Part shown: positions 9,125 to 44,227 of the stretch, piece after piece | Numbering within the stretch: position 1 is the first letter of the stretch | How the letters are laid out: each line of letters begins with the position of its first letter | DNA from: Desulfobacteraceae bacterium 4572_35.1 | GTDB taxonomy: Bacteria > Desulfobacterota > Desulfuromonadia > Desulfuromonadales > Desulfuromonadaceae | Assembly (NCBI GenBank): GCA_002084705.1 | Contig: NBLX01000003.1 | Coordinates: 1 to 51,493 of the forward strand | Length of the DNA stretch: 51,493 nucleotides | Direction: 5' to 3' | The notes under the pieces: model-generated | The model's input: only the letters and a program-made list of their open reading frames with translations | Told to the model about the DNA's origin: nothing | The model's database searches: none | Made by a program: the position numbers and the translations under genes

Positions 9125-10257
9125 TTGTTTAAGAGTCTGCAGAATATTTTCAGTATAGCTGAGCTGCGCCAACGTATTTTGTTTACTATGCTGATGTTGG
9201 CTGTATATCGTGTCGGTTGTCATGTCCCAACTCCTGGTGTAAATGGCCAAGTGCTGGCTAGCTTTTTTGAAGGTAGCCAAGGGACTTTGTTGGGTTTGGT
9301 GAGTGCCTTTACCGGTGGTGCGTTGCAGCGGATGACCGTGTTTGCGCTTGGTATCATGCCATATATCAGTGCATCGATTATTTTGCAGCTCTTGACTGTG
9401 GTTTTTGAACCGGTTGAACGATTGTCGAAAGAGGGCGAGCAGGGACGTAAGGTTATTACCCGTTGGACTCGCTATGGAACTATTGCATTATCTGTAGTGC
9501 AGGGCGCTGGTATTGCGGTTGGTTTGCAATCGATGGTTGGACCAGCTGGTGATCCTGTTGTTCCTTCCCCTGGGTTTGGTTTTATCCTGTTAACCGTTAT
9601 TACACTGACTGCCGGTACGGCTTTTATTATGTGGATTGGTGAGCAGGTGACTGAGCGCGGAGTTGGTAATGGGATATCGTTAATTATTTTTGCGGGCATT
9701 GTAGCAAACTTACCTTCGGCTATATTTAACTCAATTAGACTGTTGCGTACTGGAGCTCTTGCTCCGGTAACTATGTTGTTTCTGGCAGTTGTAATGCTGG
9801 TGGTGGTTATGGTCATAGTGTTTATGGAGCGCGCCCAGCGTCGTGTTCCAATTCACTATGCCAAGCGGGTCGTTGGAATGCGAAACAGTGGTGGTCAGTC
9901 CAGCCACTTACCATTGAAAATAAATATGAGTGGTGTTATCCCGTTGATGTGGCAGAAAATGTAAAAAATCAGGGTGGATATATACCTGGAGTGCGACCAG
10001 GTAAGCCTACTTCGGAATACTTGGATACTGTATTAAGTCGACTCACATTTGCAGGTGCGATTTATGTATCTATTGTGTGCGTATTACCTACATTGCTGAT
10101 AGGTCAATTCAATGTACCGTTTTATTTCGGTGGTACTTCATTGCTTATCGTTGTTGGGGTTGGCTTGGATACAGCGTCGCAAATTGAATCGCATCTAATA
10201 TCTCGTTCTTATGAAGGATTTATGCGCGGTGCGTCCATTAAGGGACGGCATGGGTAG
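9125..10257 (+). pseudogene. secY: Preprotein translocase subunit SecY, broken by an internal deletion with frameshift
   Basis: SecY is the ten-helix channel protein of the Sec translocon in the inner membrane. The first part (TTG start at 9125, GAGG upstream) reads normally through 273 residues to NMSGVIP near 9943, then runs into TAA at 9962. From 9943 in the next frame [16 protein letters not shown] and then the normal C-terminus to KGRHG can be read. The two halves total about 377 residues, whereas the family is about 435. The missing part, about 58 codons plus one base, would hold TM7 and TM8, which include a lateral-gate helix. As written the gene cannot make functional SecY. No second secY is in the window. 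A sequence or assembly error is the likeliest reason, since secY is essential in bacteria. Confidence 0.9.
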
Positions 10258-36594: not shown

Positions 36595-36671
<77 letters not shown>

Positions 36672-36735: not shown

Positions 36736-36812
36736 GGCGGTATAGCTCAGTTGGTTAGAGCATGCGGCTCATATCCGCAGTGTCCGGAGTTCGAATCTCT
36801 GTACCGCCACCA
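36736..36812 (+). tRNA. tRNA with anticodon CAT (elongator Met, or Ile2 read after lysidine modification)
   Basis: A 77-base cloverleaf with acceptor arms GGCGGTA and TACCGCC, D arm GCTC/GAGC, anticodon stem TGCGG/CCGCA, anticodon at 36770-36772, T arm CGGAG/CTCTG with one G-T pair, and encoded CCA. CAT can specify methionine or, after TilS converts C34 to lysidine, isoleucine at ATA codons. I favour elongator Met from overall look, but tilS lies only 78 bases downstream and the identity is not settled by the bases visible. Confidence 0.85.
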
Positions 36813-41526: not shown

Positions 41527-42303
41527 ATGGGTATGATCGATGAGATGATGAAAAACTTCAGGTGGGTGTTGGATGTTTTAGATATCACCCTGGTTGCTGT
41601 AATCATTTATTGGATCATTTTGCTGATAAAAGGTACACGTGCGGTACAGATGCTGCTTGGTCTGGCCGTTATCCTTGGCGTTTATGTTGCTGCCCAGACT
41701 TCCGGTTTATATACTCTGCAGTGGTTGCTAGATAATTTTCTAACATCTATTGTTTTGGTAATTGTTGTAATTTTTCAAAATGATATCCGACGCGCCTTGA
41801 TGCATGTTGGGCGCAATCCTTTTTTTGCCGATGTTGCTTATCGTGAAGAAACTAAATTAATAGATGAACTGGTTGCTGCCTCAGTTAATCTGGCAACAAA
41901 AAAGATCGGTGCTCTGATTGTTATTGAACGGGAAACCGGTTTGAAAAGTTTTCTTGAGGTTGGTGTTGAAATCGATGCCAAGGTATCATCTGACCTGATT
42001 ACTGCTATTTTTCTCCCGCGCTCTCCTATTCATGATGGAGCTGTGATTCTTCAGCACGGACGTCTTAAAAAGGCTGGCTGTTTCCTCCCATTATCTCAAA
42101 ATCCTGATATAAATAAAAATCTTGGTACTCGCCATCGTGCTGCTATTGGATTGACAGAAGTAGTTGATGCTGTAGTCATTGTCGTTTCTGAAGAGACCGG
42201 AAAGATTTCGGTTGTAGTGGGGGGGAGAATGACTCGTGATTTGGATTCAAAATCGTTGAGACGTATCTTGACCCGTCTTCTCGACCCGGAACGTAAATCG
42301 TAG
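41527..42303 (+). CDS. cdaA: Diadenylate cyclase CdaA (c-di-AMP synthase)
   Basis: A 258-residue membrane enzyme that makes c-di-AMP from two ATP. Three N-terminal membrane helices (roughly 14-34, 38-56, 66-84) precede the DAC domain, in which the catalytic DGA (170-172) and RHR (202-204) motifs are both intact. It sits directly before ybbR and glmM, the conserved partners that regulate CdaA in Firmicutes. The start may be ATG 41527 or 41533. The presence of both motifs makes an active cyclase likely. Confidence 0.94.
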   Translation: MGMIDEMMKNFRWVLDVLDITLVAVIIYWIILLIKGTRAVQMLLGLAVILGVYVAAQTSGLYTLQWLLDNFLTSIVLVIVVIFQNDIRRALMHVGRNPFFADVAYREETKLIDELVAASVNLATKKIGALIVIERETGLKSFLEVGVEIDAKVSSDLITAIFLPRSPIHDGAVILQHGRLKKAGCFLPLSQNPDINKNLGTRHRAAIGLTEVVDAVVIVVSEETGKISVVVGGRMTRDLDSKSLRRILTRLLDPERKS

Positions 42304-43049: not shown

Positions 43050-44227
43050 ATGACTAAGAAGTTTTTTGGCACTGATGGGGTACGTGGTGTTGCTAATGTT
43101 TATCCTATGACCACAGAGATTGCTATGCAGTTGGGGCGTGCGATTGCCTATCTGTATAAGGGCTCTGATAAAAGGAGGCGAATTGTTATCGGAAAGGATA
43201 CGCGTTTGTCCGGTTATATGATTGAGAACGCCATGGCTGCTGGGATTTGTTCTATGGGGGTTGATGTCCAACTTGTGGGACCGTTACCAACGCCGGGGAT
43301 CGCGTTTATTACTAATTCCATGCGTGCTGATGCTGGAGTTGTAATTTCAGCTTCCCACAATCCATATCAAGATAATGGAATAAAATTTTTTTCTGACCTT
43401 GGGCAGAAATTGCCCGATGAGATGGAGTTGAAGCTAGAAAACTGGAGGAGCTTGGAGCTGAAGTTATCACTCTGGGTGTTAAGCCGAACGGGACCAATAT
43501 TAACGCTGGCTGCGGGTCTCTGTACCCGCAATTGATGGCTAAAGCTGTGCGTGAGTATCGAGCCGATGTCGGTATCGCTTTAGATGGTGATGCAGACAGG
43601 GTTATTTTTGTCGATGAGCATGGTGCTGAGGTTGACGGAGATCATATTATGGCCATTTGTGCTAGTGATATGTTGAAAAATGGAACTCTGGCACACAAAA
43701 CTTTGGTAGCTACGGTTATGAGTAACATGGGGCTGGACATTGCTTTACGTGACGCCGGTGGTAAAGTTATCAAGGCTGCTGTAGGCGACCGTTATGTTAT
43801 TGAGGAGATGCTGCGTGGTGGCTATAATTTTGGTGGTGAACAATCGGGGCACATGATCTTTTTTGATTATAATTCAACCGGTGACGGTACGCTGTCGGCG
43901 TTACAGTTGCTGGCAATTATGCAGCGCACCGGCAAACCGTTATCGGAACTGGCCAAAGTTATGACCGCGTTGCCTCAGATTTTATGTAATGTGCGGGTAA
44001 AAAAGCGCATTGATTTGGCCACTGTGCCCGAGATAGATCAGGTTATCAAAGGGTGTGAAGACACGCTTGGCAACAGCGGCAGGGTGCTGATTCGTTATTC
44101 CGGTACTGAACCATTGTTACGTATTATGCTTGAGGGGGAGAGTCTTAGCCTGATTGAGCAGTTAGTTGCAAACATTGTTGATGCAGTAGAAAAACACATG
44201 GGCGGTGTTAAAGAGGGGAGTAAGTGA
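43050..44227 (+). pseudogene. glmM: Phosphoglucosamine mutase GlmM, broken by an internal deletion with frameshift
   Basis: GlmM makes glucosamine-1-phosphate for peptidoglycan and LPS. The first frame reads normally to [11 protein letters not shown] at about 43439 and includes the catalytic serine S102 in ISASHNP. From 43442 the neighbouring frame continues [17 protein letters not shown] to the end, with GDADRV (metal site) and YSGTEPLLR (phosphate site). The first frame alone stops at 43533. The total of 392 codons is about 60 short of the 445-454 usual, and the missing block covers the linker and start of domain 2. The gene cannot give GlmM as written. No second copy is present. Its product is normally essential, so a sequence error is likely. 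The stop overlaps the ATG of pdxJ. Confidence 0.9.

Follow-up and report, generated by a model that had tools for sequence, protein, structure and literature searches.

Frame-breaking loss of 196 bp in glmM of a draft Desulfuromonadaceae genome, very probably a local assembly error

INTRODUCTION

The product of the cell-wall gene glmM, phosphoglucosamine mutase, is described by the NCBIfam profile TIGR01455 (442 positions), and the sequences SASHNP, DGDADR, GEQSGH and RYSGTEP are taken here to be the GlmM active-site motifs. Phosphoglucosamine mutase activity also occurs as the second activity of an enzyme of another name, namely the phosphoglucomutase of B. subtilis, according to the part of PMC6797236 that deals with this enzyme. 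Local assembly errors and scaffold-join errors in metagenome-assembled genomes are described in the passages of Chen et al. 2020 (PMC7111523) on this subject.

The window, i.e. the whole stretch of 51,493 nucleotides analysed here, is contig C45 of the draft genome G000, and an earlier note, made from its letters and open reading frames, had read in it a glmM gene that falls into two neighbouring frames around a deletion. Compared with the systems above, the locus keeps the recognizable halves of a GlmM, lacks the stretch between them, and lies in a draft with further lesions of the same kind. We sized the loss against relatives, surveyed the draft and its same-genus relatives for other broken frames, and weighed a local assembly error against the biological readings of the break.

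MATERIALS AND METHODS

The draft G000 comprises 2,328,692 bases in 166 contigs (87.05% complete, 4.77% contaminated) and is probably metagenome-derived. The survey for broken frames covered 41 of the 166 contigs, i.e. 479,997 bases or about one fifth of the draft (no more than the initial 20 kb per contig, except for C45), and its one main reference was the single-contig relative G002, of which 860 kb were used. An ORF pair was defined as a best match with at least 60% identity and at least 80% coverage; since the ORF sets were mechanical, some antisense ORFs are among the 94 pairs obtained (one of them shown). In-frame gaps were listed for the targets G000, G004, G009 and G003.

Several survey rows were set aside. 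With G002 as the target, 0 of 111 ORFs were frame-broken against the G000 reference; one of 59 against G009 (an offset of −1 close to the N-terminus of a G009 ORF) was not counted, and neither were two of 63 against G004, which were the L258 lesion of G004 seen in reverse and a paralogue pair. The L156 row of the G004-to-G000 comparison (+151) was a product of the same L258 lesion in the reference. Two of the nine ORFs listed as broken between G002 and G004 (both on L266, offset 530) were neighbouring paralogues, so that seven of 56 were retained. Two gaps in poorly conserved stretches, one of 14 aa on L178 and one of 7 aa in G009, were left uncounted. The loss sizes from the G009-based survey (−193 and −166) were overrun by the protein alignments, and so the nucleotide sizes were used. 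A looser first survey had yielded four broken and 25 partly covered ORFs among 142; 15 of these 25 were flagged as lying less than 200 bases from the end of a stretch, and two of the other 10 (L180), when rechecked, were matches to antisense-type ORFs with stops.

The GlmM loci of relatives numbered 109. The species collection gave 512 matches, of which the best 80 were taken, and the relatives search gave 30 loci, of which 29 were taken, the window's own locus (L084) being excluded. Weakly matching genomes lie outside the 109, and so do G028, G039, G004, G005, G012, G041, G052 and G010. In the relatives search, G028 and G039 gave paralogue-level matches only, with no GlmM orthologue seen, and G004, G005, G012, G041 and G052 gave partial GlmM matches; the contig of G010 starts shortly before its GlmM-matching part.

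RESULTS AND DISCUSSION

The window's glmM consists of two constrained halves in different frames

Read from its start, the glmM frame is that of a normal GlmM up to [11 protein letters not shown], the last codon of which is 43437-43439, and it then runs out of register as N-W-R-S to a stop at 43533-43535, forming an ORF of 161 aa. The next frame takes over at 43442 with [17 protein letters not shown] and proceeds to the normal end at 44227 (Table 1). Both the frames and the profile matches bear out the earlier reading of two halves in neighbouring frames, and no internal stops occur within either part.

Table 1. Coordinates of the glmM and secY parts in the window and of the other lesions in draft G000
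Feature	Position	Strand	Basis
glmM 5′ part, domain I, ending [11 protein letters not shown]	43050..43441	+	frames, profile matches
glmM join, 196 bp missing	43440..43443	+	alignment to G009 and G004; offsets for G005, G003, G002
glmM 3′ part, closing portion of domain II, then domains III and IV, regular as far as the stop codon	43442..44227	+	frames, profile matches
secY 5′ part	9125..9943	+	companion lesion
secY join, 178 bp missing; four bases (CCCG) agree with either flank in the intact relative	9940..9943	+	alignment
secY 3′ part	9940..10257	+	frame, matches
purD, frame-breaking 82-bp loss	L179 5246-6432 (G000:C24)		comparison with relatives
NtrC-type regulator gene, frame-breaking 47-bp loss	L168 3416-4781 (G000:C19)		comparison with relatives
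dGTPase gene, in-frame 28-codon loss versus G002, conserved stretch	L177 (G000:C22)		

Both halves have the equivalog TIGR01455 as their best match, the 5′ part covering profile positions 1-127 and the 3′ part 193-441, and about 65 positions (128-192) are absent between them; the earlier estimate that some 70 residues had shrunk to about 8 was thus about right. The two ORFs score 197.3 and 331.8 bits, both under the curated cut-off of 447.55, and no single protein exceeds it. In Pfam terms, domains I, III and IV are present, whereas domain II is represented by its end only: the match to PF02879 runs from 3 to 103 in an intact relative, and from 72 to 103 (or from 39 to 103 in the genome search) in the window protein, so the start of domain 2 belongs to the lost piece, as had been proposed. 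All four of the presumed active-site motifs are readable, but they are spread over the two frames. Gene order around the locus is the same as in relatives. The likeness to GlmM therefore lies in the order of the two matching halves and in their conserved neighbourhood, and the difference in the missing profile stretch, the change of frame and the sub-cut-off scores.

Selective constraint was compared on the two sides of both joins in the window. The pN/pS values were 0.11 and 0.21 for glmM and 0.09 and 0.05 for secY, and ranged from 0.06 to 0.38 in nine other window genes, the secY 3′ part lying just under that range. Each join is thus flanked on either side by ordinary, strong constraint, which is not what an old pseudogene would show; that reading was rejected on this ground. 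The constraint is compatible with a very recent deletion, to which pN/pS is blind because synonymous sites are near saturation versus G009.

The loss amounts to 196 bp and is absent from relatives

In the nucleotide alignment to G009 the offset changes from 1000 to 1196 across the break, i.e. 196 bp are lost. The alignment to G004 gave the same 196 bp, the offsets for G005, G003 and G002 concurred, and the break lies at the identical place versus each of the five same-genus relatives examined. As 196 equals 65 × 3 + 1, the loss corresponds to 65 codons plus one base; the alignment to intact GlmM thus upholds both the deletion and its '1 mod 3' remainder, and shows the earlier figure of about 60 codons to be slightly low.

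In the 109 loci of relatives (104 distinct), GlmM was in one frame across residues 125-210 (G009 numbering) without exception, and a naturally shorter GlmM, which the earlier note had named as a possible refutation, was not found among them. The break is not a matter of chance, because all 109 loci are intact across the stretch; the lesion is absent from independent relatives, and the window's split glmM is not a natural form.

These comparisons also bear on the reading that glmM is functional as it stands, by ribosome bypassing, frameshifting or a two-part GlmM. The downstream ORF has its TTG start at 43532, overlapping the upstream TGA at 43533-43535, which makes re-initiation conceivable. 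Even a perfect frame switch, however, would still omit about 65 residues, much of domain II; the split form occurs in none of the 109 loci; and secY and purD are broken in the same manner. We regard this reading as barely credible.

Queries with intact GlmM and SecY against the draft G000 found neither a second copy of glmM or secY nor any match elsewhere to the lost pieces, and a misplacement of the missing piece within the draft was rejected on this basis. The GlmM search returned the two broken pieces and two CpsG-like paralogues, on C33 and C67, and the SecY search returned the two pieces of secY alone. A search of the plasmid collection gave partial matches only, which, where annotated, were pdxJ and one glmM, and was of no help.

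A companion lesion splits secY on the same contig

The earlier note had described the glmM loss as similar to that of another gene with the same frame shift, which we take to be secY. Its two parts indeed sit in different frames, and the offset to G009 changes from 36 to 214 within 9125-10257, giving a loss of 178 bp that is also 1 mod 3. Beyond glmM and secY, no gene split between frames appeared in the window's best-hit tables versus G009 and G002. The common '1 mod 3' of the two genes is no signature, because G000 also has a 2 mod 3 loss (47 bp) and an in-frame loss (28 codons), and G004 has all three classes. A cell that loses SecY is not viable.

Further lesions are scattered over the draft G000

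Versus G002, four of the 94 ORF pairs in G000 were frame-broken, i.e. glmM (196 bp), secY (178 bp), purD (82 bp) and an NtrC-type regulator (47 bp). None of the 94 pairs was broken by an indel of 1-2 bp, and the stops inside the match in five pairs fell at the gene end (three), in an upstream extension (one) or in an antisense ORF (one). With the same reference, the control samples contained no frame-broken ORF (0/54 in G009, 0/37 in G003 and 0/26 in G005, together 0/117). Taken without the C28 gap and G004 described below, the comparison of 4/94 with 0/117 is suggestive and not conclusive.

A plain scaffolding error is seen on contig C28 (L183 104-324), where 13 Ns at 208-220 separate 104 bases (104-207) from their exact repeat at 221-324; this gap is an overlap missed by the scaffolder when joining two pieces. 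Other join errors thus accompany the glmM and secY breaks in the same assembly, namely the C28 gap and the purD, NtrC-type and dGTPase lesions. Set beside the errors described in the relevant passages of Chen et al. 2020 (PMC7111523), G000 is alike in its incorrect protein-coding genes and in an N gap left despite overlapping flanks (C28, 104 bp), and unlike in its presumed direct joins, where 20-200 bp are dropped and no Ns inserted, a type that those passages do not describe.

No common physical cause of the losses emerged. Hairpin-induced loss was rejected, as the G009 counterpart of the glmM piece gave a fold slightly more stable than its shuffled versions (z = −2.5; five of 200 shuffles were as good) and that of the secY piece did not (z = −0.3). 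Short direct repeats, i.e. CCCG at secY, about two bases at purD and at the NtrC-type gene (by eye) and none clear at glmM, are too short and too inconsistent, and the sizes of 196, 178, 82, 47 and 84 bp indicate no fixed unit of deletion.

The survey further bears on a real deletion, in which glmM would be dead or dying and a CpsG-type phosphomannomutase/phosphoglucomutase paralogue would supply the phosphoglucosamine mutase step. Deletion between short repeats is a familiar event in bacteria, the draft holds the two superfamily paralogues on C33 and C67, and the B. subtilis phosphoglucomutase has the required secondary activity (PMC6797236, in the part cited above). Given that second activity, the paralogues weaken the argument as regards glmM only and not as regards secY. 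Against a real deletion, secY on the same contig is broken likewise with no second copy found in the draft, purD is broken too, and the losses are both in-frame and out-of-frame. Real gene decay, moreover, is rich in one-base frameshifts and stops, and not one one-base frameshift occurs among the 94 pairs. A living lineage would not carry the secY, glmM and purD losses together. That the organism itself carries the deletion is therefore not supported, and the version with paralogue replacement is unlikely; were the deletion true, it would mean life without intact SecY and GlmM, and nothing else here supports that.

The sister draft G004 carries lesions of the same kind

In G004, seven of 56 ORFs versus G002 were frame-broken after the two paralogue artefacts had been removed. 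The frame lesions, sized by various references, include argS (140 bp), pyrG (170 bp), clpA (62 bp, or 53 bp by G009), an ORF matching window positions 41527-42303 (187 bp) and a gene on L269 (197 bp); in-frame losses were found in glyQ (seven codons) and hflX (35 codons), and L258 and L262 also gave, respectively, an eight-codon in-frame gap and a loss within the same frame. Its glmM is intact at the window's break point and contains tandem duplications of 13 bp and 33 bp. Over the stretches inspected in this draft (L115, L149 and L256-L275), deletions of about 20-200 bp are numerous, and there are exact tandem duplications 13-84 bp in length, with several conserved genes hit.

A second draft affected in this way bears on two further readings. 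One is a strain mixture or an amplification chimera (such chimeras often give inverted joins), by which a minority deleted template or molecule would have entered the consensus; the short CCCG common to both secY flanks, the fragmentation of the draft and its estimated contamination of 4.8% would suit it. Such an event, however, would have to have struck many genes in two drafts of one genus, and on both sides of the joins the genes follow each other as in the same relatives; it is very unlikely. The other is a real lineage that lives without working glmM, secY and purD frames, via read-out across the breaks or via paralogues, with G004 belonging to the same odd lineage, and this we consider highly improbable.

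A local assembly error best accounts for the glmM break

The glmM break is very probably a local assembly error. The organism most likely carries an intact glmM, and the pieces on either side of 196 bp that assembled poorly were probably joined directly, without Ns, during assembly, scaffolding or consensus building. Such a join would drop 65 codons plus one base and put the 3′ part of the gene out of frame, and the same kind of wrong join, with 178 bp dropped, probably broke secY. A wrong join in assembly is favoured because the lesions hit indispensable genes. The case for it is carried by the C28 gap, by G004 and by the nature of the genes hit, the contrast of broken ORF pairs between G000 and the controls being small on its own. 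The glmM join has no Ns and its flanks share at most a few bases (four at secY), features that point to no particular producing step; we infer that there would be reads contradicting the join, and that the assembly step rather than library making was at fault.

The lesion pattern as a whole fits assembly errors, and the glmM loss is almost certainly not a real biological feature. With 4/94 and 7/56 ORFs frame-broken, universal genes included, G000 and G004 are unfit for inferring gene loss or split genes.

The tandem duplications count against the reading as an assembly error in one respect: G004 shows an excess of exact tandem duplications (17 in 301 kb) that G000 does not share (four in 480 kb, compared with five in 285 kb of G009 and six in 860 kb of G002). 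As a separate observation, the window holds two adjoining tRNA-Met genes with the CAT anticodon, at 36595-36671 and 36736-36812.
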